NCBI RefSeq assembly: GCF_017939625.1
Contig: NZ_JAGKTC010000003.1
Coordinates: 62,001-126,000, forward strand
DNA: 64,000 bases
DNA from: Pseudoxanthomonas helianthi
Lineage (GTDB): Bacteria; Pseudomonadota; Gammaproteobacteria; Xanthomonadales; Xanthomonadaceae
Reading direction: 5' to 3'
Within the stretch, counting starts at the first letter, position 1. Each line of letters begins with the position of its first letter. A model generated the notes under the pieces. It had not been told where the DNA came from. It made no database searches and saw only the letters and a list, made by a program, of their open reading frames with translations. Below are positions 390 through 62,647 of the stretch, piece by piece. Made by a program: the position numbers and the translations under genes.

Positions 390-3584
<3,195 letters not shown>

Positions 3585-4217: not shown

Positions 4218-4973
4218 TCACGGGGTCGTATCCTTCGGTTCCGTCGCAGCCTGCGCGCCGCCACGCACCGCATCGCGAACGCCGTCGCGCACTTCCTGCT
4301 GCAGCTTGGCCCGGTCTTCGTCGGAGAACGCGGCCGCGCCCTTGTGGTCCTTGCCGCAGTCGTCGACGTCTTCCTGCGTCATCGTCGCGTACGGCTTGAA
4401 CTCGGGCAGGGAAGCGGCGAGCTTGTCCTGGGCGACCAGCATCGGGCCCAGGTGCGCGCAGATCTGCATCGCGTCGGCTTCGAGCTTCTTGCCCTCGGCT
4501 TCCATCTTCTTTTCGAATTCGTCGGTATCGCCGCTGAGAATGCTGCCCAGCGACTCGGTCAGCGCCTTGCCGGCCAGGTCGGCGCCCTTCAGTCCGACGG
4601 TCATGCCGGCCTCGGCCACGCCAAGCAGGTTGCTGCGGTAATCGAGCAACTGCTTGCGCTGCTCGGGGGTGATCGCCACCGCCTTGCCGTCGATCAGCAG
4701 GTCGCCCTGCGGGGTGATCTCGGCCTTGGGCAGGCTGGGATCGTTCCTGCCGCCGTACCTGCGGCCGTTGATGTTGATGCCGCCATCGCCGTTCAGGGTC
4801 AGGTTCTTGGTCTGCAGTTCCTTGCGCGCTTCCGCGATGCCCTTGGCTGCGATCTTGCCGATCGCGGTCTGTGGCGCCGCAGGGGCGTTGGGGTCGGCGG
4901 CCGGGGCGGATGCCTTGTGGCAGGCGCACAGCGACAGCGTGGCGAGGAAGGCGATGGCGTGGAGTCTGTTCAT
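4218..4973 (-). CDS. DUF2884 (YggN-type) lipoprotein
   Basis: A 251-residue envelope protein with a signal peptide and a likely lipobox at LSLCAC (residues 14-19). The body matches the DUF2884/YggN family: a strand segment LPKAEITPQGDLLIDGKAV near residue 82, an 'EQRKQLLDYR' segment after it, an amphipathic helical middle, and a C-terminal EFKPYATMTQEDVDDC block. The family has no established biochemical function. It is a paralogue of the next gene upstream (4989-5636), sharing LPKAEITP and PYAT--DVDDC, separated by 15 bases. Position downstream of a YtrA-controlled ABC transporter suggests a role in the same envelope response; this is inference. Confidence 0.82.
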   Translation of the reverse strand: MNRLHAIAFLATLSLCACHKASAPAADPNAPAAPQTAIGKIAAKGIAEARKELQTKNLTLNGDGGININGRRYGGRNDPSLPKAEITPQGDLLIDGKAVAITPEQRKQLLDYRSNLLGVAEAGMTVGLKGADLAGKALTESLGSILSGDTDEFEKKMEAEGKKLEADAMQICAHLGPMLVAQDKLAASLPEFKPYATMTQEDVDDCGKDHKGAAAFSDEDRAKLQQEVRDGVRDAVRGGAQAATEPKDTTP

Positions 4974-4988: not shown

Positions 4989-5636
4989 TCAGCGCATGGC
5001 GAAATCGTTGCGGATGTCCTTCTCGCAGTCGTCGACGTCGTCGCGCTCGAGCGTGGCGTACGGCCGGAACTGCGGCAGGCTGGCGGACAGCTGCTGCTGC
5101 GAGGCCAGCACGTCGGGCAGTCTATGGCAGATCCGCCGCACCATCGGTTCGACGTGCTGCTTGACCGTGCGTTCGACGCGCCGTTCCAGGCTGCCGGTCA
5201 TCCCGCCCCAGATCAGGCCGAACAGCGAGGTGTCGGTGGCCTCGATCGCGGCCATCGCCGCGTGCTCGCCCGCGTCGATGCCGTCCTTGGCGATTTCGAT
5301 GACCAGGCCGCGATAGCCGAGCAGCTGCTGGCGTTGCGCGGCATTGACGGCCACGGCCTTGCCTTCGATCAGGAAATCGCCGCGCGGGGTGATTTCCGCC
5401 TTCGGCAGTTTCTCGTCGCGCGAGGCCTTTCTTTTCCCGTCCTTGCCGAAATGGAAGCTGTTGCCGACTTCCAGGTTTTCCGTGTCCAGTTCGACCCGGG
5501 CCTTGGCCAGTTCGGCGCGCACTTCGCTGCGTGCTTCGGCCATGTCGTGGCGGACGTCGTCGCGGACGCTGCCGGCCTGGGCGCCCAACGGCAGCAGCAG
5601 GGCCAGGGCGAGAGCGGTGATGCGGAGGGTTTTCAT
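4989..5636 (-). CDS. DUF2884 (YggN-type) periplasmic protein
   Basis: A 215-residue paralogue of the adjacent lipoprotein. It has a cleavable-looking signal peptide (MKTLRITALALALLLPLGAQA) without a lipobox, a charged helical stretch at 24-55, the strand segment LPKAEITPRGDFLIEGKAV, and the C-terminal PYATLERDDVDDC block. GGAG stands upstream of the ATG at 5636. The pair therefore couples one soluble and one lipid-anchored version of the same domain. Function is unknown. A hairpin at 5655-5676 separates it from the ABC permease, so expression may be partly uncoupled from the transporter. Confidence 0.8.
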   Translation of the reverse strand: MKTLRITALALALLLPLGAQAGSVRDDVRHDMAEARSEVRAELAKARVELDTENLEVGNSFHFGKDGKRKASRDEKLPKAEITPRGDFLIEGKAVAVNAAQRQQLLGYRGLVIEIAKDGIDAGEHAAMAAIEATDTSLFGLIWGGMTGSLERRVERTVKQHVEPMVRRICHRLPDVLASQQQLSASLPQFRPYATLERDDVDDCEKDIRNDFAMR

Positions 5637-5700: not shown

Positions 5701-6669
5701 TCAGTCGGCCAGTTCGCGCCAGCGACGCATGCGGATGGCCAGGTAGATCATCGCGACGCCGGCGACGATGCCGATCCAGATGTCGGCGTGGCCCAGCGCT
5801 TGCCAACTGGTGCCCAGGCTCAGCTTGGATGCCAGGTCGGCCGGTTCGTGCATCGGGCCGGCGTTGTCGATCAGCGGCAGCCAGGTCCCGGGCACGATGC
5901 TCAGCAGCCCGCGGTACAGCACCACGTACAGCAGGGAACCGTAGGGCAGCTCGATGTCCGAGGCGATCTTGAACATCAGCGCCACCACGCCGGCCATCGC
6001 GCAGAACAGGAACGGGATCAGCACCGACCACAGGAACGGGAAGCGCTTCGCCCAGGCCGAGCACAGCATCAGCCAGCCGACGGTCGGCAGCGACCACAGG
6101 ATCTGCACCGGGAAGGACAGCAGCACGTTGCCGATGATGCGCAGCGGATGCGAGTGGGTCAGGATGCCGCTCGCGCCGGGCACGCCGTTGATCGCGGAGG
6201 TCAGCGCGGCGATCAGCCAGAACGCGACGCCGGTCAGCACGCCGGCGGCCAGGGCCAGTAGCGGCGCCAGCAGCAGCGCCCACGCCAGCTTCGACAGCAC
6301 CATCTGCGTGTCCGACACCGGCAGCGACTTCCAGAACAGGATGCTGCGGTCGCGGCGGTCGTCGTACAGCGAGCCCAGCGAGTAGAAGAACACCACGAAG
6401 GTCACCACGGCCATGGCCAGGCCGATGCCGAGCAGCAGGGCACCGTCGCCGACCTGGCCGGCGACGCGGCTGGCCTCGGCGAGGTCATCGACGTGGATGT
6501 CGTGCTTGCTGCGGACCAGGGTGGTGATCAGGCCGGCCATCGCGGCGAAGAACGCGGCGATGATCCCGGTGATCGCCGGGGCCCAGACGAAGCCGCCGCG
6601 GTTCTCCCAGAATTCGCGCTTCAGCAGCCACTGGAACGTGTTGGTCTTGTGCGTGGCGACGGCGTTCAT
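5701..6669 (-). CDS. ABC-2 type transporter permease
   Basis: A 322-residue membrane protein starting with a cytoplasmic helix (FQWLLKREFWENRGGFVWAP) and six hydrophobic segments spread to residue 310, the usual arrangement of an ABC-2 exporter permease. The YDDRRDRSILFWKSLPVS coupling loop near residue 105 is characteristic of the subfamily next to YtrA regulators. Its ATG overlaps the ATPase stop (ATGA at 6666-6669), so the two are translationally coupled and form one transporter. Substrate is not evident; relatives are linked to antibiotic or membrane-stress responses. Confidence 0.9.
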   Translation of the reverse strand: MNAVATHKTNTFQWLLKREFWENRGGFVWAPAITGIIAAFFAAMAGLITTLVRSKHDIHVDDLAEASRVAGQVGDGALLLGIGLAMAVVTFVVFFYSLGSLYDDRRDRSILFWKSLPVSDTQMVLSKLAWALLLAPLLALAAGVLTGVAFWLIAALTSAINGVPGASGILTHSHPLRIIGNVLLSFPVQILWSLPTVGWLMLCSAWAKRFPFLWSVLIPFLFCAMAGVVALMFKIASDIELPYGSLLYVVLYRGLLSIVPGTWLPLIDNAGPMHEPADLASKLSLGTSWQALGHADIWIGIVAGVAMIYLAIRMRRWRELAD

Positions 6670-7538
6670 GCGTAGGTTCCTTTCATGATGGCGACGAACA
6701 GGTCGGCGAGGCCGGGGGTGCGGGTTTCGCCCAGCGCGGCGAGCTGTTCGCGCGGGACGTTGTCGAACAGCAGCACGGTCTTGCCGAACGGCAGGGCGCG
6801 TTCGTCGATGGGTTTCAGCGCGCGCGCCTGCTCGGCCTTGTCGGCGGACACGAGCAGTTCGGTGTAGCGCTCGGCCACTTCGTCCATCTGCGCGGTCAGG
6901 GCGATCCGGCCGTCGCGGATGAACATCACGTCGGTGAGGATGTGCTCGATCTCCTCGACCTGGTGGGTGGTGACCAGGATGGTCTTCTGCTCGTCGAAGT
7001 AGTCTTCCAGCAGGCGCTGGTAGAACTGCTTGCGGTACAGGATGTCCAGGCCGAGCGTCGGTTCGTCCAGCACCAGCAGCTTGGCATCGATCGCCATCAC
7101 CAGGGCCAGGTGCAGCTGCACGATCATGCCCTTGGACATTTCGCGCACGCGCAGGTTGGGCGACAGCTGGGTGTGGGCGATGAAGCGTTCGCACTTGGCG
7201 CGGTCGAAGCGCGGGTGCACGCCGGCGACGAAGTCGATGGCTTCCTTCACCCGCAACCAGCGCGGCAGCACCGCCACGTCGGCGATGAAGCACACGTCGC
7301 GCATCAGTTCGTCGCGCTGGGTGCGCGGGTCCATGCCCAGCACCTTCAGCTCGCCCTCGAACGGGATCAGGCCGAGGATGGCCTTCAGCGCGGTGGTCTT
7401 GCCGGCGCCGTTCGGACCGATCAGGCCGATGATCTTGCCGGGTTCGATGTCGAAGCTGGTGTTGTCCAGCGCCAGCTTGTTCTTGTAGGCCTTGCGCAGG
7501 CCGTGCGCGGATACGACGTTGTTGGCGGCAGCGTTCAC
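6666..7538 (-). CDS. ABC transporter ATP-binding protein
   Basis: A 290-residue ATPase. Walker A GPNGAGKT is at 41-48, Walker B LLVLDEP lies downstream, a switch histidine follows in LVTTHQVEE, and the signature is MSKGM rather than LSGGQ, a variant usual in YtrB-like ATPases. About 70 C-terminal residues beyond the nucleotide-binding domain probably form an accessory domain. The start is GTG 7538, overlapping the regulator's stop as GTGA; an AAGGGGA lies 7 bases before it. An earlier start would require reading through the regulator in another frame. It pairs with the permease at 5701-6669. Confidence 0.92.
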   Translation of the reverse strand: MNAAANNVVSAHGLRKAYKNKLALDNTSFDIEPGKIIGLIGPNGAGKTTALKAILGLIPFEGELKVLGMDPRTQRDELMRDVCFIADVAVLPRWLRVKEAIDFVAGVHPRFDRAKCERFIAHTQLSPNLRVREMSKGMIVQLHLALVMAIDAKLLVLDEPTLGLDILYRKQFYQRLLEDYFDEQKTILVTTHQVEEIEHILTDVMFIRDGRIALTAQMDEVAERYTELLVSADKAEQARALKPIDERALPFGKTVLLFDNVPREQLAALGETRTPGLADLFVAIMKGTYA

Positions 7539-7903
7539 TTGGCGATCCCCTTCAGTAGTTCTTCGGCGGACAGGCCCAGGCGCTGGATGCGCTCGGCGAC
7601 CGGCGGCCATTCTTCGTTGAGAAAGCGTTCGCGTTCGCTGCCGAGCAGCTTCTTCGCCGCTTCGTCGGTCACGAACATGCCCAGCCCGCGGCGCTTCTCG
7701 ACCAGGGCCTCGTCGGCCAGTTCCTGGTAGGCGCGCGATACGGTGATCGGGTTGAGCTGGTATTCGGCCGCGACCTGGCGGACCGAGGGCAGGGCATCGC
7801 CCGGCTTCAGCACGCCGTCCAGCATCATCGCGATCACCCGGTCCTTCAACTGGCGGTAGATCGGCGCGCCGTCGGCCCATTGCACGGAAGTCATCATCAT
7901 CAT
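7535..7903 (-). CDS. ytrA: GntR-family regulator, YtrA subfamily
   Basis: A 122-residue repressor with an N-terminal winged helix and only a short C-terminal helical tail, the YtrA pattern. The DNA-binding region reads APIYRQLKDRVIAMMLDGVL, GDALPSVRQVAAEYQLNPIT and VSRAYQELADEALVEKRRGLG. The start is ATG 7903 (the first of four consecutive ATG codons), with GAGGA 6 bases upstream; a longer frame reads into the preceding gene. It is followed directly by the ABC genes and preceded by a GGTG-N16-CACC palindrome at 8174-8197, so autorepression of the operon is likely. The cognate ligand is unknown. Confidence 0.92.
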   Translation of the reverse strand: MMMMTSVQWADGAPIYRQLKDRVIAMMLDGVLKPGDALPSVRQVAAEYQLNPITVSRAYQELADEALVEKRRGLGMFVTDEAAKKLLGSERERFLNEEWPPVAERIQRLGLSAEELLKGIAK

Positions 7904-7904
7904 G

Positions 7905-8147
7905 TCAGTTCCTCGGACGCAGCGACTGCGCAAAGGAGAAGTAGGGCATCGTCAGGGAGTGCCGGCGATGGCGGCGGGGCGTGGTTTCGTCGGCCCGGAT
8001 CGCCTCGGTCCCGGTCAGGTCGGCGCCGATTTCGGCTTCGACGGCCCGGCCCCGGCCGGAGCCCGCCAGGCTGGCCAGCAAGGCCAGGCCGAGCACGGCG
8101 CCGCTGGCACCGAGCGTGGGCAGAAGATGGAGGGACTTGCTTGGCAT
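7905..8147 (-). CDS. Small membrane or exported protein, first gene of the ytrA operon
   Basis: An 80-residue product I do not recognise by family. It has a hydrophobic N-terminal segment (LLPTLGASGAVLGLALLASL, residues 8-27) and a charged C-terminal half rich in arginine. A strong GGGAGAG lies 4 bases before ATG 8147, and its stop is one base from the ytrA start, so it looks like a real, coupled gene. It is the first gene after the operator-promoter. It could be a small accessory to the ABC transporter or a leader that couples translation to ytrA. Confidence 0.6.
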   Translation of the reverse strand: MPSKSLHLLPTLGASGAVLGLALLASLAGSGRGRAVEAEIGADLTGTEAIRADETTPRRHRRHSLTMPYFSFAQSLRPRN

Positions 8148-8173: not shown

Positions 8174-8197
8174 GGTGTTGTATGTAACTATAACACC
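8174..8197 (-). promoter_or_regulatory. YtrA operator GGTG-N16-CACC (site 1)
   Basis: GGTG at 8174-8177 and CACC at 8194-8197 are separated by exactly 16 bases. The spacer is AT-rich in a GC-rich genome and partly palindromic. It covers the -10 of the predicted operon promoter. The pattern is the one I recall for YtrA in Xanthomonas; binding here is inference. Confidence 0.7.
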
Positions 8198-8214
8198 TAA
8201 ACAGCGGTCGTCAA
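8187..8214 (-). promoter_or_regulatory. Sigma-70-type promoter of the ytrA operon
   Basis: On the minus strand, TTGACG (8209-8214) and TATAGT (8187-8192) are spaced by 16 bases, close to consensus. The -10 lies inside the GGTG-N16-CACC operator, so a bound repressor would block RNA polymerase. The first gene starts 40 bases downstream. Confidence 0.65.
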
Positions 8215-8280: not shown

Positions 8281-8844
8281 ATGAGAGTCAACTTGTTGAA
8301 ATTTCTGGTATTTGTCGTGCTCTGCGCTGTTGCGGCCGCGGCCATGGCGGGTGCCCTGTTGGACCACAATTACCGTCCGCTGGCCGGCAAGACCCCGGTG
8401 AACCTGAACCAGAAGTACGCCGGCGACGTGCTGCTGGTGGTCAATACCGCCAGCAAATGCGGTTTCACCCCGCAGTACGAGGGTCTGGAAGCCCTGCACC
8501 AGAAATACGCAGACCGGGGATTCGCCGTGCTCGGCTTCCCATCGAACGATTTCAAGGGTCAGGAGCCGGGCAGCGAACGGCAGATCCAGGAGTTCTGCAC
8601 GCTGACCTATGGGGTGAAATTCCCGATGTTCGAGAAGGTGCACGTGACCGGCGCGGAAACCACGCCGCTGTACCGCGAACTGGCGCGGGAAACCGGCGTC
8701 GCACCCGGCTGGAACTTCCACAAGTACCTGATCGGTCGCGATGGCCGCGTCGTCGCCCAGTTCCCCAGCAAGGTCAAGCCGGACGATCCGCAACTGGTAG
8801 AGGCCATCGAACGCGAACTGAAAGCGCCACGCCCGGCGCATTGA
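8281..8844 (+). CDS. Glutathione peroxidase, exported or membrane-anchored
   Basis: A 187-residue thiol peroxidase of the glutathione-peroxidase family, reducing H2O2 or lipid peroxides, probably with thioredoxin in bacteria. The N-terminal 24 residues are a hydrophobic signal or anchor (LVFVVLCAVAAAAMAGALL region), placing it in the periplasm or on the membrane, unlike the usual cytosolic form. The catalytic residues are visible: C60 in NTASKCGFTPQ, Q94 in FPSNDFKGQEPG, and W144-N145 in GWNFHKYL. A GGAAG stands before the ATG. It faces away from the ytrA operon across a shared regulatory gap. Confidence 0.92.
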   Translation: MRVNLLKFLVFVVLCAVAAAAMAGALLDHNYRPLAGKTPVNLNQKYAGDVLLVVNTASKCGFTPQYEGLEALHQKYADRGFAVLGFPSNDFKGQEPGSERQIQEFCTLTYGVKFPMFEKVHVTGAETTPLYRELARETGVAPGWNFHKYLIGRDGRVVAQFPSKVKPDDPQLVEAIERELKAPRPAH

Positions 8845-54781: not shown

Positions 54782-54914
54782 CCATGCGCGGCAAGGCGCT
54801 GTTTCCTCTACGCTGCGCGCGACGCGGCCTGCAACGGACACGGTCGTCTCCGCATCCCAATGGGAATGCCCAGCAAGTCACCATGACCTTCGGCGCATAC
54901 GCCGTTCAAGCTTG

Positions 54915-54938
54915 GGTGATATACCTATCTACAACACC
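54915..54938 (+). promoter_or_regulatory. YtrA-type operator GGTG-N16-CACC (site 2)
   Basis: GGTG (54915-54918), 16 bases, CACC (54935-54938), 20 bases before the adaptor start. Eleven of 16 spacer bases match the reverse complement of site 1 at 8174-8197. A -35-like GTGATA (54916-54921) and -10-like TATACA (54939-54944) with 17 bases between them overlap the site. Predicted target of the YtrA regulator encoded at 7535-7903. Confidence 0.6.
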
Positions 54939-54958: not shown

Positions 54959-56086
54959 ATGTCCCCACTCAACTCCCCCCGTCGCCCGAACTTCCGTCTG
55001 GCGGCCCTCCTGATGACCACCGCTTTCGCCCTGGCCGCCTGCAAGGGCGGGGGTGGCCCCGGAGAGGCCATGGCCAAGGACGGCAAGGACAAGGGGGCCG
55101 ACGCCGTCCCTGTGGAAGTCGCCAAGGCGGAACGCCGCGCCATCGCGGCGAGCTATGCCAACACCTCCACGCTGGAGCCGCGCGCCGAATCGCAGGTCGT
55201 GGCCAAGACCTCCGGCGTGGCCTTGGCGGTGCTGGTCGAAGAAGGCCAGCAGGTGAAGGCCGGGCAGCCGCTGGTGCGGCTGGATCCGGATCGCGCGCGC
55301 TTGGCGGTCAGCCAGGCCGAGGCGCAGATGATGAAGCTGGAGAACAACTACGTCCGCGCGCAGAAGCTGGTGACCCAGCAGATGATCAGCGCCAACGACC
55401 TCGACGAGATCCGCTTCAACCTGGCCAATGCGCGCGCGCAATACAACTCGGCCAAGCTGGAGCTGTCCTATACCACGGTCACCGCGCCGATTTCCGGCGT
55501 GATCGCTTCGCGCAGCATCAAGGCGGGCAACTTCGTGCAGATCAACTCGCCGATCTTCCGCATCGTCGACAGCAGCCGGCTGGAAGCCACGCTCAACGTG
55601 CCCGAGCGCGAGATCGCCAAGATCAAGCCGGGGCAGGCGGTGGAACTGGTCGCCGATGCGCTGCCGGGCCAGCGCTTCACCGGTACGGTCGACCGCGTGT
55701 CGCCGGTGGTCGACACCGGCACCGGCACCTTCCGCGTGGTCGCCGCCTTCGCCGGCGACGGCCAGTTGCAGCCGGGCATGTTCAGCCGCCTGAGCATCAA
55801 CTACGACCAGCGCGCCGATGCGCTGGTGGTGCCGCGCACCGCGCTGTTGGAAGACGGCGGCGAACCCGCCGTATTCGTGGTCCGCGACAACAAGGCCGTG
55901 CGCACCACCCTGAAGCTGGGCTATGACGACGCCGGCCTGGTCGAAGTGCGCGAAGGCCTGAAACCGGGCGATGCCGTGGTCATCGCCGGCAAGGCCGCGT
56001 TGCGCGAAGGCAGCGCGGTGCAGGTGATCGGAGACAAGAAGCCGGTGCAGGCCAAGGCCGCGACCCCGGCGCAGGCGGTGAAGTAA
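54959..56086 (+). CDS. RND periplasmic adaptor lipoprotein (tandem-pump operon)
   Basis: A 375-residue adaptor with lipobox LAAC (residues 25-28), barrel-sandwich segments (VVAKTSGVALAVLVEEGQQV, KAGQPLVRLDPDRARL), a short hairpin of about 105-150, the returning TTVTAPISGVIASRSIKAGN, and the beta-barrel VVDTGTGTFRVVAAF. It would link two RND permeases downstream to an outer-membrane channel not encoded here. The stop overlaps the next start as TAATG. A YtrA-type operator lies 20 bases before the ATG. Confidence 0.92.
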   Translation: MSPLNSPRRPNFRLAALLMTTAFALAACKGGGGPGEAMAKDGKDKGADAVPVEVAKAERRAIAASYANTSTLEPRAESQVVAKTSGVALAVLVEEGQQVKAGQPLVRLDPDRARLAVSQAEAQMMKLENNYVRAQKLVTQQMISANDLDEIRFNLANARAQYNSAKLELSYTTVTAPISGVIASRSIKAGNFVQINSPIFRIVDSSRLEATLNVPEREIAKIKPGQAVELVADALPGQRFTGTVDRVSPVVDTGTGTFRVVAAFAGDGQLQPGMFSRLSINYDQRADALVVPRTALLEDGGEPAVFVVRDNKAVRTTLKLGYDDAGLVEVREGLKPGDAVVIAGKAALREGSAVQVIGDKKPVQAKAATPAQAVK

Positions 56087-59000
56087 TGAGCCCGCACGAT
56101 TCGCGGGAGGTCGCGGACGCTTCGGGCGGCGGCTTCAACCTGGTCGAGTTCGCCACGCGCCGGCGCGTCACCATCGCGATGATGACGCTGACCCTGGTGC
56201 TGTTCGGCATGATTTCGCTGTCCAGCCTCAAGGTCGAACTGCTGCCGGACCTCAGCTATCCGACCCTGACCGTGCGTACCGACTACGAAGGCGCCGCGCC
56301 TTCGGAAGTCGAGACCCTGATTTCGCAGCCGGCCGAAGAAGCGCTGGGCGTGGTCAAGGGCCTGCGCAAGCTGAAGTCGATTTCGCGCACCGGACAGAGC
56401 GATGTCGTGCTCGAGTTCGCCTGGGGCACGAACATGGAGCAGGCCGGCCTGGACGTGCGCGACAAGATGGAGGCGCTGCAGCTGCCGCTGGAGGCCAAGC
56501 CGCCGGTACTGTTGCGCTTCAATCCGTCCACCCAGCCGATCATGCGCCTGGCGCTGTCGTCGAAGCAGGATAGCGGCGGCGAAGCCGAAGCGATCCGCCG
56601 GCTGATGGAACTGCGCCGCTACGCCGACGAAGACCTGAAGCGCAAGCTGGAGCCGGTCGACGGCGTGGCCGCGGTCAAGGTCGGCGGCGGCCTCGAGGAC
56701 GAGGTGCAGGTCGACATCGACCAGCGCAAGCTGGCCCAGCTGGGCCTGTCGCTGGACAGCGTGATCCAGCGCCTGCAGCAGGAAAACGTCAACCTGTCCG
56801 GCGGCCGCCTGGAAGAAGGCTCGCAGCGCTACCTGGTGCGCACGGTCAACCAGTTCGCCACGGTCGAGCAGATGCGCGAGATGCTGCTGACCACGGCGAG
56901 CGGCTCGGGCAGCGCATCGGCGACCGGCACCAATGCCCAATTGATGACCGCGATCCTCGGCAGCCGCGATCCGAACGTGATCGCCGCGTTGCAGGGAGGC
57001 GGTTCCGGTAGCGGCACTTCGCCGGTGCGGCTGAAGGACGTGGCCGACGTGCGCCAGGGCTACAAGGAACGCGAGGCGGTGATCCGCAGCGGCGGCCACG
57101 AAGCGGTGGAACTGGCCATCTACAAGGAAGGCGACGCCAACACGGTCGCCACCGCGGACGCGCTGGAAGCGCGGCTGAAGCTGATCCGCGAGAAGATGCC
57201 CAAGGACATCGAGCTGACCGAGGTCGAGGACCAGTCGGTGTTCATCCGTCACGCGGTCAACGATGTCAAGGTCGACGCGGTGATCGGCGGCATCCTGTCG
57301 ATCCTGATCATCTTCCTGTTCCTGCGCGATGGCTGGAGCACCTTCGTCATCTCGCTTTCGCTGCCGGTGTCGATCATCGCGACGTTCTTCTTCATGGGCC
57401 AGTTGGGCCTGTCGTTGAACGTGATGTCGCTGGGCGGCCTGGCGCTGGCCACCGGCCTGGTGGTGGACGACTCGATCGTCGTGCTGGAAAGCATCGCCAA
57501 GGCGCGCGAGCGCGGGCTGGGCATCCTCGAAGCCGCCATCGCCGGCACGCGCGAAGTCAGCATGGCGGTGGTCGCTTCGACCCTGACCACCATCGCGGTA
57601 TTCCTGCCGCTGGTGTTCGTGCAGGGCATCGCCGGACAGCTGTTCCGCGACCAGGCGCTGACCGTGGCGATCGCCATCGCGGTGTCGCTGGTGGTGGCGA
57701 TGACCCTGATCCCGATGCTGAGTGCGCTGAAGGGCCGCCCGCCGCTGGGTTTCCCCGAGGAAGCGCCGCGTGGACGCTGGCAGCCGAACAAAACCTGGCA
57801 GAAGCCGGCCGCATACACCGGCCGCGGCGTGGGCGCGTTGTTCCGCTATGGCTTCTTCAGCATCGCGTGGATCATCGTGCGCATCTGGCGCGGCCTGGTG
57901 GCCGTGGTCGGCCCGGTCATGCGCAAGTTCAGCGACCTGGCGATGGCGCCGTACGCGCGCGCCGAACGCGCCTACCTGCGCATCCTGCCCGCGGCCCTGA
58001 AACGTCCCGCACCGGTGCTGGGCGTGGCGGCCGTGGCGTTCATCCTGACCCTGCTGGCCTTGCCGATGCTCGGCACCGACCTGATCCCGCAGCTGGCGCA
58101 GGACCGTTTCGAAATGACCGCCAAGCTGCCGCCGGGCACGCCGCTGGCGCAGACCGATGCGTTGATTCGCGACGTGCAGCAGAAGCACGCCAAGGAAAAC
58201 GGCGTACGCCTGTTGTACGGCGTGTCCGGCACCGGCACGCGCCTGGATGCCAGCCCGACCGAGAGCGGCGAGAACATCGGCAAGCTGACCGTGGTGATGG
58301 GCGATACCTCGCGCGAGACCGAGTTGACCGAAAAGCTGCGCGAGACGATGAAGGCCTATCCGTCGGCGCAGGTCGATTTCGCCCGCCCCGAGCTGTTCTC
58401 GTTGTCGCCGCCGCTGGAGATCGAGATCGAAGGCAGCGACCTGGACACGATCCGCGTGGCCGGCAACAAGCTGGCCGGCATGCTGCGCGCCAATCCGCAC
58501 TACGCCGACGTGAAGTCGACGGTGGAGCAGGGTTTCCCGGAAATCCAGATCGTGTTCGACCAGGACCGCGCCGCCGCGCTCGGCCTGACCACGCGCCAGA
58601 TCGCCGATGCGGTGGTCAACAAGGTCAAGGGCAACGTCGCCACGCGCTACAGTTTCCGCGACCGCAAGATCGACGTACTGGTGCGGGTGCGGGAATCGGA
58701 ACGTTCCTCGGTCGAGGACATCCGCCGCCTGATCGTCAACCCGACTGCCGGCACGCCGGTGGAACTGGGTTCGGTCGCCGACATCGTGTCCACTACCGGT
58801 CCCAGCGAGATCCACCGCGCCGACCAGCGCCGCGTCGCCATCGTCTCGGCCAACCTGCGCGATACCGACCTGGGTGCGGCGATCGGCGAAGTGCGCAAGA
58901 TGGTCGCCGACAATCCGCTGGGCACCGACATCGACATGCGCATCGGTGGCCAGGGCCAGGAACTGGACGACTCGATCAAGTCGCTGCTGTTCGCCTTCGG

Positions 59001-59571
59001 CTTGGCGGTGTTCTTGGTCTACCTGGTGATGGCCTCGCAGTTCGAATCGCTGCTGCATCCGTTCGTCATCCTGTTCACCATCCCGCTGGCCCTGGTCGGC
59101 GCGGTGCTGGCCCTGTTGCTGACTCGTGCGCCGGTGTCGGTGGTGGTGTTCATCGGCCTGATCCTGCTGGTCGGCCTGGTGGTGAAGAACGCGATCATCC
59201 TGATCGACAAGGTCAACCAGCTGCGCGAGGACGGCGTGGCCAAGCGCGAGGCACTGGTCGAAGGCGCACGCTCGCGCCTGCGTCCGATCATGATGACCAC
59301 GCTGTGCGCGGTGTTCGGCTTCCTGCCGCTGGCGCTGGCCTTCGGCGAAGGCGCGGAAGTGCGTTCGCCGATGGCGACCACGGTGATCGGCGGCCTGCTG
59401 GTGTCGACCCTGCTCACCCTGGTGGTGATCCCGGTGGTCTACGACCTGCTGGACCGCAAGCCGGACGAGTTCTACGCCGAACGCGGCCGCCGCGCGCGCA
59501 ACGCCGCCGCCCAGGTGGCCGAGGTGCTCTCGCACGAACACGATGCCCTCGGCGACGCCGCAAAGGACTGA
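56086..59571 (+). CDS. RND efflux permease 1 (proton-conducting, enlarged)
   Basis: A 1,161-residue RND permease, about 120 longer than AcrB. The proton relay is intact: D461-D462 in GLVVDDSIVVLES and K1034 in GLVVKNAIILID. The extra length is an N-terminal extension, a Ser/Gly/Ala-rich insert near residues 270-310 (SGSGSASATGTNAQ; GGGSGSG), and a long linker at about 550-620 between the two halves, including hydrophobic stretches (FFSIAWIIVRIWRGLVAVVG). It couples to the adaptor by TAATG and is followed after 4 bases by a second permease, suggesting a heteromeric pump. Confidence 0.93.
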   Translation: MSPHDSREVADASGGGFNLVEFATRRRVTIAMMTLTLVLFGMISLSSLKVELLPDLSYPTLTVRTDYEGAAPSEVETLISQPAEEALGVVKGLRKLKSISRTGQSDVVLEFAWGTNMEQAGLDVRDKMEALQLPLEAKPPVLLRFNPSTQPIMRLALSSKQDSGGEAEAIRRLMELRRYADEDLKRKLEPVDGVAAVKVGGGLEDEVQVDIDQRKLAQLGLSLDSVIQRLQQENVNLSGGRLEEGSQRYLVRTVNQFATVEQMREMLLTTASGSGSASATGTNAQLMTAILGSRDPNVIAALQGGGSGSGTSPVRLKDVADVRQGYKEREAVIRSGGHEAVELAIYKEGDANTVATADALEARLKLIREKMPKDIELTEVEDQSVFIRHAVNDVKVDAVIGGILSILIIFLFLRDGWSTFVISLSLPVSIIATFFFMGQLGLSLNVMSLGGLALATGLVVDDSIVVLESIAKARERGLGILEAAIAGTREVSMAVVASTLTTIAVFLPLVFVQGIAGQLFRDQALTVAIAIAVSLVVAMTLIPMLSALKGRPPLGFPEEAPRGRWQPNKTWQKPAAYTGRGVGALFRYGFFSIAWIIVRIWRGLVAVVGPVMRKFSDLAMAPYARAERAYLRILPAALKRPAPVLGVAAVAFILTLLALPMLGTDLIPQLAQDRFEMTAKLPPGTPLAQTDALIRDVQQKHAKENGVRLLYGVSGTGTRLDASPTESGENIGKLTVVMGDTSRETELTEKLRETMKAYPSAQVDFARPELFSLSPPLEIEIEGSDLDTIRVAGNKLAGMLRANPHYADVKSTVEQGFPEIQIVFDQDRAAALGLTTRQIADAVVNKVKGNVATRYSFRDRKIDVLVRVRESERSSVEDIRRLIVNPTAGTPVELGSVADIVSTTGPSEIHRADQRRVAIVSANLRDTDLGAAIGEVRKMVADNPLGTDIDMRIGGQGQELDDSIKSLLFAFGLAVFLVYLVMASQFESLLHPFVILFTIPLALVGAVLALLLTRAPVSVVVFIGLILLVGLVVKNAIILIDKVNQLREDGVAKREALVEGARSRLRPIMMTTLCAVFGFLPLALAFGEGAEVRSPMATTVIGGLLVSTLLTLVVIPVVYDLLDRKPDEFYAERGRRARNAAAQVAEVLSHEHDALGDAAKD

Positions 59572-59575
59572 CCGG

Positions 59576-62500
59576 ATGAACATCACCGAGCTGTCCATCC
59601 GCCGGCCCGTCACCACCATCATGCTGTTCGTGTCGATGGTGGTGATCGGCCTGATCGCCTCGTTCCGCCTGCCGCTGGAGGCCGAACCCGAGGCGACGAT
59701 TCCGTTCTTCTTCGTGCAACTGCCGTATGCGGGTTCCACCTCGGAAGAAGTGGAACGCAACATCGTGCGGCCGGTGGAAGAGGCGCTGGCCACGATGCCC
59801 GGCATCGAGTCGATGAACTCGCGCGCCAACGCCGAGGGCGGCTCGGTGCAGGTGCGGTTCAGCGACTGGGACAAGGACATCGCCATCGCCGCGTCCGACG
59901 CGCGCGAGCGCATCGACGCGATCCGCGACCAGTTGCCGGACGATTTCCGCCGCTACTTCGTCTACCGCTGGAGCACCAGCGACCGCGAGGCGATCAGCCT
60001 GCGCCTGAGTAGCAACATCGACCTGAGCGCGCGCGCCGACCTGATCGAACGCAGCATCAAGCAGCGCCTGGAGCGCCTGCCGGGCGTCGCCCGGGTCGAG
60101 GTGGAAGGCGTGGCCCAGCAGGAAGTGCTGGTGGCGTTGGACAAGGATCGCCTGACCGCGAACGGCGTGGCCTTGAACGATCTGGTGAAGCAGCTGCAGG
60201 CGGCGAATTTCTCCGTGTCCGCCGGCCAGATCACCGAATCCGGGCAACGCCTGCGGGTGCAGCCCAAGGGCGAACTGGCCCAGTTGCAGCAGCTGCGCGA
60301 CCTGCGCATCGACAAGCGCGGCACGCGGCTGTCCGACGTCGCCGACGTCGACCTGAAGCCGCAGCGCATGGATTACGTGCGGCGCATGGAAGGCAAGCCC
60401 AGCGTCGGCGTGGACATCTACAAGGAACGCGCGGCCAACCTGGTCGACCTGTCGCGCTCCGTGCGCGAGGAAGTGAAGCTGCTGGAGCAGGATCCGGCGA
60501 TGCAGGGCGTGAACATCGAGGTCACCGACGACCAGGGCCAGGCGGTGACCAGCTCGCTGCTGGCGCTGGCCGAGGCGGGCGCCATCGGCCTGCTGCTGTC
60601 GGTGATCGTGCTGTACGCGTTCCTGCGCCACTGGCCGTCCACGCTGATGGTGACCCTGGCCATCCCGATCTGCTTCATCATGACCCTCGGCTTCATGTAC
60701 TTCACCGGCATCACGCTGAACATCATCTCGATGATGGGCCTGCTGCTGGCGGTGGGCATGCTGGTCGACAACGCGGTGGTGGTGGTCGAGAGCATCTACC
60801 AGGAACGCGAGAAGTACCCGGGCAAGCCGTGGCTGGCTTCGATCGTCGGCACCCGCCACGTGGCCATCGCGCTGTCCGCGGGCACGCTGTGCCACTGCGT
60901 GGTGTTCCTGCCGATGATGTTCGGCGAGAAGAACATCATCACCATCTACCTGTCGCAGCTGGCGGTGACGATTTCGTTCTCGCTGCTGGCCTCTTGGCTG
61001 GTCGCGATCAGCCTGATCCCGATGCTATCGGCGCGGATGAAGACCCCGCCGGCGCTGAAGTCGCCGTTCATCACCCGGCTGCAGCAGCGCTACGCGCGCG
61101 CCCTGCGCTGGACCCTGGAACACCGCGGCTGGAGCGTGGCCGGCATCCTGCTCATCACCGCGGCCAGTTTCTGGCCGATGACCCATACCCAGGGCGGCGG
61201 CGACGACAACGACCCCAGCGAGATCAACATCTTCTACCAGTGGAAGGGCGCCTATTCCAAGGAGGAAATGGGCAAGGAAGTGGCGCGGGTCGAAGCCTTC
61301 GTCAACGCCAACCGCAAGCCGTTCCACATCGAGCGCGTGTACAGCCGCTACAGCGAAACCGGCTGGGCGCAGACCCGGTTGTTCCTCGACATCGAGGATC
61401 CGGAGCTGAGCAAGAAGATCCAGGAGGACGTGCGCAAGGGCCTGCCGCAATCGGCGCGCGCCAAGATCGGCATCGGCTGGCCGGGCATGGACGACCCCAA
61501 CGGCCAGGGCATCAGTTTCAGCCTGATCGGCGATTCGTCGCAGACCCTGCAGGAACTGGCCGAGGACGTGGTGCCGATGCTGGCGCGCAATCCGAAGCTG
61601 CGCGACGTGCGCGTGGATACCGGCGACGCCAATACCGAGCTGGCGGTGCGGGTGAACCGCGAACGCGCGGCCGCCTACGGCTTCAGTGCGCAGCAGGTGG
61701 CGCAGTACGTCAGCATGGCGTTGCGCGGCTCTTCGCTGCGCGACTTCCACCGCGGGGAGATCGAAATCCCGGTCAACGTGCGTTTCGCCGGCTCCGAGAA
61801 CTACGGCGTCGAGGACCTGTCGACCTTCATGGTGCGCGCGCCCAACGGCAGCGAGGTGCCGCTGCTGGCGATGGTCGACGTCGGGGTCAATCCGGCCGCG
61901 ACCTCGATCCAGCGCCAGAGCCGGCAGACCATGCTGAAGGTGGAAGCAAGCCTGGCCAAGGACGTGTCGATGCAGGACGCGCGCAAGGCCATCGAATCCA
62001 CCTTGAACGGCATGCAGTTCCCGCCGGGCTACGGCTATACCTTCGAAGGCGGCGGCTTCAACATCAACTTCGACGGCATGGCGCAAATGCAGCGGGCGAT
62101 CATGATCGCGCTGGTGCTGATGCTGGTGATCATGGCGGCGGTGTTCGAATCGCTGCTGTTCCCGCTGGCGATCATGTCCTGCGTGCTGTTCTCGATCTTC
62201 GGCGTGTACTGGCTGTTCTGGATCACCGGCACCGAGATGAACATCATGGCGGTGATCGGCATCCTGGTGCTGATGGGCGTGGTGGTGAACAACGGCATCG
62301 TGATGATCGAGCACATCAACAACCTGCGACGGCGAGGCTTGCCGCGCACCCAGGCATTGGTCGAAGGCAGCAAGGAACGCCTGCGCCCGATCATGATGAC
62401 CATGGGCACGGCGATCCTGGCGATGATCCCGATCGCGTTGTCGACCAAGACCGCGGACGGCATGCCGCCGTACTACCCGATGGCCCGCGCCATCGCCGGT

Positions 62501-62647
62501 GGCCTGGCGTTCTCGACCGTGGTCAGCCTGCTGTTCCTGCCGACCATCTACGCGATCCTGGACGACCTGCGCATCGGTACGAAGCGCCTGATGGGCAGGG
62601 CGCGGATGACCCGTGCGCAGCGGCGTGAGGCGCAGGCCACGGCATGA
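59576..62647 (+). CDS. RND efflux permease 2 (altered proton relay)
   Basis: A 1,023-residue RND permease of ordinary length, beginning MNITELSIRRPVTTIMLFVS. It has 12 predicted membrane segments and both porter loops, but the proton-relay positions differ: D398-N399 (GMLVDNAVVVVES) in place of two aspartates, and N905 (GVVVNNGIVMIEH) in place of the lysine. The equivalents (AcrB D408 and K940) are needed for proton-driven transport. Start ATG 59576, 4 bases after the first permease; an in-frame ATG at 59543 lies inside it. Likely assembles with permease 1. Confidence 0.92.
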   Translation: MNITELSIRRPVTTIMLFVSMVVIGLIASFRLPLEAEPEATIPFFFVQLPYAGSTSEEVERNIVRPVEEALATMPGIESMNSRANAEGGSVQVRFSDWDKDIAIAASDARERIDAIRDQLPDDFRRYFVYRWSTSDREAISLRLSSNIDLSARADLIERSIKQRLERLPGVARVEVEGVAQQEVLVALDKDRLTANGVALNDLVKQLQAANFSVSAGQITESGQRLRVQPKGELAQLQQLRDLRIDKRGTRLSDVADVDLKPQRMDYVRRMEGKPSVGVDIYKERAANLVDLSRSVREEVKLLEQDPAMQGVNIEVTDDQGQAVTSSLLALAEAGAIGLLLSVIVLYAFLRHWPSTLMVTLAIPICFIMTLGFMYFTGITLNIISMMGLLLAVGMLVDNAVVVVESIYQEREKYPGKPWLASIVGTRHVAIALSAGTLCHCVVFLPMMFGEKNIITIYLSQLAVTISFSLLASWLVAISLIPMLSARMKTPPALKSPFITRLQQRYARALRWTLEHRGWSVAGILLITAASFWPMTHTQGGGDDNDPSEINIFYQWKGAYSKEEMGKEVARVEAFVNANRKPFHIERVYSRYSETGWAQTRLFLDIEDPELSKKIQEDVRKGLPQSARAKIGIGWPGMDDPNGQGISFSLIGDSSQTLQELAEDVVPMLARNPKLRDVRVDTGDANTELAVRVNRERAAAYGFSAQQVAQYVSMALRGSSLRDFHRGEIEIPVNVRFAGSENYGVEDLSTFMVRAPNGSEVPLLAMVDVGVNPAATSIQRQSRQTMLKVEASLAKDVSMQDARKAIESTLNGMQFPPGYGYTFEGGGFNINFDGMAQMQRAIMIALVLMLVIMAAVFESLLFPLAIMSCVLFSIFGVYWLFWITGTEMNIMAVIGILVLMGVVVNNGIVMIEHINNLRRRGLPRTQALVEGSKERLRPIMMTMGTAILAMIPIALSTKTADGMPPYYPMARAIAGGLAFSTVVSLLFLPTIYAILDDLRIGTKRLMGRARMTRAQRREAQATA

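Follow-up and report, generated by a model that had tools for sequence, protein, structure and literature searches.

Regulators of the YtrA subfamily of GntR proteins have a C-terminal domain of about 50 amino acids (PMC4494728), and their operators are palindromes of about 24 bp with half-sites that lie far apart (PMC6746942). For YtrA of Bacillus subtilis, two binding sites are known, located in the ytrA and ywoB promoters (PMC4730234). YtrASa of Sulfolobus acidocaldarius represses its own operon and only one distant gene for a membrane protein, and it uses a shared palindrome that extends across the transcription start (PMC6746942). The YtrA-type regulator HpaR1 of Xanthomonas campestris activates gumB, with a footprint from −21 to +10 (PMC4730234), and Xanthomonas HpaR1 and YtrA have been named together and tied to the control of type III secretion (PMC7831014, PMC11173191). 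The motif GGTG-N16-CACC was assigned to YtrA of Xanthomonas citri with reference to Zhou et al. 2017 (PMC6746942). According to the comparative survey by Suvorova et al. 2015, most YtrA-subfamily regulons consist of a single ABC operon; the main text of this survey contains no word that begins with xanthomon, rnd or efflux (PMC4494728).

The locus analyzed here lies in a 64,000-nucleotide stretch of the 3.59-Mb genome of Pseudoxanthomonas helianthi (C3:62001-126000, hereafter the window). On its reverse strand, ytrA (7535..7900) encodes a GntR-family regulator of 121 amino acids with an N-terminal GntR winged helix (PF00392, 55.8 bits, residues 15-77), which leaves 44 residues past the helix-turn-helix match for a short C-terminal domain of the YtrA type. 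The top match among sequences of solved structures was 3tqn (120 bits). The gene is directly followed on the same strand by those for an ABC exporter ATPase (6666..7538; PF00005) and a weakly matched ABC-2 type permease (5701..6669; PF13346, 21.1 bits against a cut-off of 25), so that the regulator belongs to an ABC operon, and a palindrome of about 24 bp, here called site 1, is present in its own promoter. Between this palindrome and ytrA, a small reverse-strand ORF of 80 codons (7905..8147) is the first reading frame past site 1, at a distance of 27 bp, and has no Pfam match. Two DUF2884 proteins had been predicted further along the operon: the assignment holds for the one encoded by 4218..4973 (reverse strand; PF11101, 43.8 bits against a cut-off of 30.6), and the other one (4989..5636, reverse strand) is DUF2884-like with 22.6 bits, which is below the same Pfam cut-off. 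The closest named relatives of ytrA are from Pseudoxanthomonas, with 94% identity in P. sangjuensis, and the DNA-binding domain is identical at 58 to 62 of its 63 residues in 18 relatives, including species of Xanthomonas, Stenotrophomonas, Lysobacter and Luteimonas. A divergent gene (8281-8844), glutathione peroxidase-like as judged by eye, begins 83 bp from site 1.

Far from this operon, on the forward strand, the window contains a tandem RND operon with genes for a periplasmic adaptor of the membrane fusion type (54959..56086; TIGR01730, 291.5 bits), RND permease 1 (56086..59571; PF00873; its top sequence match among solved structures is MdtB, 9lyq) and RND permease 2 (59543..62647; PF00873). 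This layout of an adaptor followed by two RND permeases in tandem is of the SmeIJK/MdtABC type, and the two permeases had been predicted to form a heteromeric pump. SmeIJK of Stenotrophomonas maltophilia, for which control by sigma-E has been reported (PMC4229105), likewise combines one adaptor with two tandem RND permeases. SmeJ and SmeK are 42% identical (PMC4229105), whereas permeases 1 and 2 share 31% over their best aligned stretch, and this permease identity does not support an identification of the pump as SmeIJK.

The original prediction placed GGTG-N16-CACC in front of both operons, and the motif was indeed located at 8174..8197 on the reverse strand (site 1, before the ytrA operon; GGTGTTGTATGTAACTATAACACC on the forward strand and GGTGTTATAGTTACATACAACACC in the orientation of the operon) and at 54915..54938 on the forward strand (site 2, before the RND operon; GGTGATATACCTATCTACAACACC). 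Site 2 ends 20 bases before the ATG of the adaptor gene, and 11 of the 16 spacer bases are alike once one site is reversed, as had been stated. Since the two operons are located on opposite strands, the sites share the same orientation relative to their own genes. The motif has the same form, GGTG-N16-CACC, as the one cited for X. citri YtrA. B. subtilis YtrA, also a short GntR regulator acting at two promoters with dyad-symmetric operators, differs in that its repeats are 13 bp apart instead of the 16 bp between GGTG and CACC (PMC4730234).

By itself, GGTG-N16-CACC is uninformative, because this 8-base form is no commoner than expected by chance. Two occurrences were observed in the window against 1.43 expected, two or more were found in 44 of 100 shuffled sequences, and 68 places in the genome compare with 110 for the reversed control. 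The caution about chance that accompanied the original prediction was therefore right for the motif as it had been formulated. We derived a longer palindrome, GGTGTTRTANNTANNTAYAACACC, by aligning sites 1 and 2, and with up to three mismatches allowed it occurs in the genome at only two places, which are sites 1 and 2 (reversed control: none). A scatter of sites across the genome, which had been named as an argument against a regulon, was thus seen with the 8-base form, whereas the full motif is confined to the claimed promoters. A relaxed motif, GGTGNNNTANNNNNNTANNNCACC, has three matches in the genome with none for the control, whereas the base composition predicts about 0.10.

Conservation in relatives was examined at several levels. 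All 38 genomes of the genus matched GGTGTTRTANNTANNTAYAACACC, at two places in 30 genomes, three in 7 and one in a single genome that is 89% complete; the reversed control gave 1 match in a single genome. Matches were found in 293 of 297 genomes of the family, representing 53 of its 54 genera, and in 97 of 121 genomes of an order-wide sample that included the family. In at least 13 genomes of other families, comparison by eye paired a site with a ytrA homologue at a distance of a few hundred bases. The relaxed motif GGTGNNNTANNNNNNTANNNCACC was matched in 224 of 247 family genomes, with control hits in 15 rows.

The positions of these matches were consistent as well. Inspection of 70 loci within the genus, which did not cover genomes G035-G037 or several first sites (those of G030-G032 and G034), located the site in front of ytrA in 31 cases (G000-G029 and G033). 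In 33 cases it stands before the adaptor gene, with about 1.15-1.26 kb between it and RND permease 1 (G000-G034 minus G014 and G033; one of these loci, L077, was recognised with the permease-2 query only). The remaining loci comprised 4 before a third target, 1 before another ABC ATPase gene and 1 without a recognised target. Among 30 loci from other genomes of the family, the site preceded ytrA in 23 and the first RND permease gene in 5; one was near an ABC ATPase gene and one matched no query gene. Named ytrA loci have the site in 78 of 80 cases, and in the two without it the sequence ahead of the gene is just 153 and 207 bp long. A clear adaptor orthologue (63-76% identity, the others listed reaching at most 36%) was found in 29 named genomes spanning Xanthomonas, Stenotrophomonas, Lysobacter, Luteimonas and others. 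The site is present in front of the gene within three mismatches in 27 of them; one of the other two is at four mismatches, and the second (L197) retains GGTG-N16-CACC. In the Xanthomonas loci, the site is found both before ytrA and before the RND adaptor gene. Conservation of site 2 had been set beforehand as a test of the prediction, and site 2 is kept in the 33 genus loci as in the 27 of 29 named genomes.

At 60 site-2 loci (56 distinct windows, with a few genomes counted twice), GGTGNNNTANNNNNNTANNNCACC is exact in 50 and matched with at most one mismatch in 58; 10 depart from it, so that some genera show drift at site 2. Conservation at site 2 amounts to 98% in the half-sites, 100% at the TA positions and 69% in the centre, compared to 49% and 44% in the flanks. 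For site 1, 77 of 80 loci are exact for GGTGNNNTANNNNNNTANNNCACC, with 99% conservation in the half-sites and 54% and 52% in the flanks. This contrast between half-sites and flanks at both sites is a phylogenetic footprint. In many relatives, site 1 is additionally flanked by AGTTGGGT upstream and its inverted copy ACCCAAC downstream; these flanks are weaker in the P. helianthi genome (8148-8245 of the window).

A third site lies outside the window (C1:1399382-1399405), where a distance of 29 bp separates it from the ATG of a gene for a protein of 146 amino acids. This protein has a signal-like N-terminus, contains repeats of the IVDLPTVTVRP type and scores 144.1 bits against the NCBIfam model NF052303 ('XAC0231 family'), above the equivalog cut-off of 140. 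A related pattern with one mismatch allowed was found at three places in 34 of the 38 genus genomes and at two places in the other 4 (control: 1 match). The protein is present in 27 of 119 family genomes, covering 10 of 54 genera, and GGTGNNNTANNNNNNTANNNCACC stands exactly before the gene in all 26 readable loci of the 27 retrieved, as established by walking the reading frame upstream; in the 17 of these 26 loci where a start follows the site, the first in-frame start is 24-31 bp from it. A lower count of 9 of 24 was judged to be an artefact, because the gene starts had been extrapolated from alignments inside the repeat protein and the wrong stretch was scanned. Among the 120 of 342 homologues that were listed, those with a name were mostly called 'hypothetical protein', and an AlphaFold2 model of the exported protein was unusable (mean pLDDT 49.8). 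The model name suggests that a X. citri gene of this type has already been described somewhere; our literature search for XAC0231 found no paper with this term.

The original prediction also held that both window sites overlap promoter-like elements. For site 1 this was borne out: a promoter scan of the ytrA operon identified the −35 element TTGACG (8209..8214, reverse strand) and, within the operator, the extended −10 element TATAGT with TG in front (8187..8192, reverse strand). The combination TTGACG-16-TATAGT was found once by a two-hexamer scan, with 0.1 expected, and TTGAC is present at the equivalent position in 25 of 27 listed site-1 loci (counted by eye). For site 2 the overlap was not recovered by the same scan, which found neither a promoter nor a −35 element there; an extended −10-like sequence, TGATATACC (54917..54925, forward strand), was recognised within site 2 by eye only. 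The operator at site 3 is preceded by TTGACC at a distance of about 10 bp.

Several other explanations for the three sites were weighed. Since the 8-base pattern is expected about once per window (1.43) and its 68 genome matches do not exceed the 110 of the control, it could have fallen before two operons by coincidence. This is hardly credible for the long motif, which in the P. helianthi genome occurs at these promoters and nowhere else. It is matched in 293 of 297 family genomes, and in nearly all inspected loci the genes that follow it are the same. A chance origin was accordingly rejected on the grounds of conservation, and the claim that two such well-placed sites are not fortuitous could be upheld, the long palindrome being far above its control. 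Alternatively, sites 2 and 3 may be true operators that are used by a different protein of the GntR/YtrA type with the same specificity. The genome does encode a second YtrA-like protein, outside the window (C3:21848-22183; 37% identical to YtrA), and an ABC ATPase gene follows its gene (reverse strand, approximately 2795-3205 of locus L287). The palindrome upstream of this gene, as identified by eye, is a different one, CTGTACT-N9-AGTACAG. Moreover, the shared motif occurs at three sites only, so that the promoter of the paralogue itself lacks it. A paralogue that sits beside its own ABC ATPase gene with another palindrome makes YtrA the likelier partner of the shared motif, and we regard the involvement of a different protein at sites 2 and 3 as very unlikely.

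For site 2 in particular, the sign of the regulation deserves consideration. YtrA might activate the RND operon, or it might fine-tune a promoter that is driven mainly by another factor. A conserved block, GTCACCATGACCTTCGGCGCAT (54877..54898, forward strand), which holds GTCA-N3-TGAC, is located 16 bp upstream of site 2 and may serve the RND operon as an activator site. Most of the listed site-2 loci retain this block (CCATGACCTTCGGCGCATG) ahead of site 2, and with at most one mismatch the block has one match each in 9 of 13 genus genomes and none in the other 4; matches with two mismatches are about as frequent as those of the reversed control in these 13 genomes. The failure of the scan to find a −35 element at site 2 would fit such a role, and the activation of gumB by HpaR1 (PMC4730234) means that the sign of regulation at site 2 could differ. 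On the other hand, the −10-like sequence seen by eye lies within site 2 as the −10 element does within site 1, which fits occlusion of the promoter, and two loci from another genus (L175 and L176) are without the block and have TTGACA upstream instead. On balance, activation or fine-tuning at site 2 appears unlikely to us, though less so than the recruitment of a different regulator.

Some of the results do not follow the simple expectation that YtrA and its operator occur together. The presence of YtrA largely failed as a predictor of the motif: among 27 genomes without the site, 22 have a YtrA homologue with 52-82% identity, compared to 26 of 27 genomes with the site (P. helianthi apart; at least 48% identity). 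Genome G442 has the motif at two places, yet its best YtrA homologue reaches just 31%. In one other family (f9), 13 of 18 genomes are without the site, and 12 of these 13 have a YtrA homologue with 55-63% identity; the binding specificity of YtrA may have changed in this family. Outside the Xanthomonadaceae, the link between YtrA and the motif is loose.

Within the family, loss of the RND operon was mostly rejected as the reason why some genomes have only one site. Among 39 one-site or no-site genomes of the family survey that were tested, 35 have an adaptor orthologue with at least 51% identity. Four are without a clear adaptor: the best match in G288 is 32%, the match in G205 is partial with an internal stop, and that in G112 ends at a contig edge; in G014, a genome that is 89% complete, the adaptor reaches just 35%. 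Upstream of the adaptor gene, 18 of the 35 loci were read, and GGTGNNNTANNNNNNTANNNCACC was matched exactly in 10, whereas 7 differ from it by one base and 1 by two bases. In these one-site genomes the RND operator has thus drifted but is recognisable. In G194 and G237, which were each counted with two places, the RND site is at five mismatches to the tight motif, so that one of the two counted places must be something else. A variant operator of the GGTAGTGTAG / TATAACACC type was observed before a further ABC ATPase gene (assigned by eye) in four of four loci (L051 3020-3043, L290 1639-1662, L291 2003-2026 and L292 2005-2028). It is possible that this further ABC exporter is a fourth member of the regulon in some genomes; it was not found in P. 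helianthi.

Based on the present data, YtrA probably acts as a repressor on a shared 24-bp operator in front of its own ABC operon, the RND pump operon and the gene for the exported protein. The original idea of one repressor for the ABC and RND operons is supported by the confinement of the long motif to promoters and by the conservation of both sites, and the genome comparisons support its extension to a small, widely conserved putative regulon of at least three operons. We infer the binding of YtrA, the repression and the inducing signal. A YtrA dimer would contact the outer half-sites GGTG and CACC, which are about two helical turns apart, and would thereby lie over the promoter, which is clearest for site 1. 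Because the −10 element lies within site 1, bound YtrA would exclude RNA polymerase from the operon of its own ABC exporter, resulting in autorepression, and the two other operons would be repressed as well. By analogy with Bacillus YtrA, release of the regulator under cell-wall antibiotic stress may lead to derepression.

With the multi-site YtrA of B. subtilis and the two-locus regulon of Sulfolobus, this kind of regulon is already known. YtrASa resembles the regulator proposed for P. helianthi in combining autorepression with a distant target under one palindrome; it differs in its 14-bp core motif, in acting on an archaeal promoter and in having targets that resemble no characterised transporters (PMC6746942). 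No RND target is named for B. subtilis YtrA in the excerpt of PMC4730234, and for X. citri YtrA the excerpted review stresses type III secretion genes instead (PMC7831014). A connection between YtrA and this RND operon was not found in our literature search, though it may still be in print; the RND and exported-protein targets may be additions to the target list of Zhou et al. 2017 or may already be part of it.

More tentatively, and with slightly less than even confidence, we propose that an envelope-defence regulon exists throughout the family (Lysobacteraceae/Xanthomonadaceae), in which YtrA would control an ABC exporter, an RND pump with dissimilar permeases and an exported protein, with a second factor acting at CCATGACCTTCGGCGCATG and an extra ABC exporter being included in some genomes. 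The predicted link from YtrA to the RND pump and the exported protein would offer a handle on pump control in the family that includes Xanthomonas, Stenotrophomonas and Lysobacter, and the shared regulon hints that three uncharacterised systems act together in the cell envelope.
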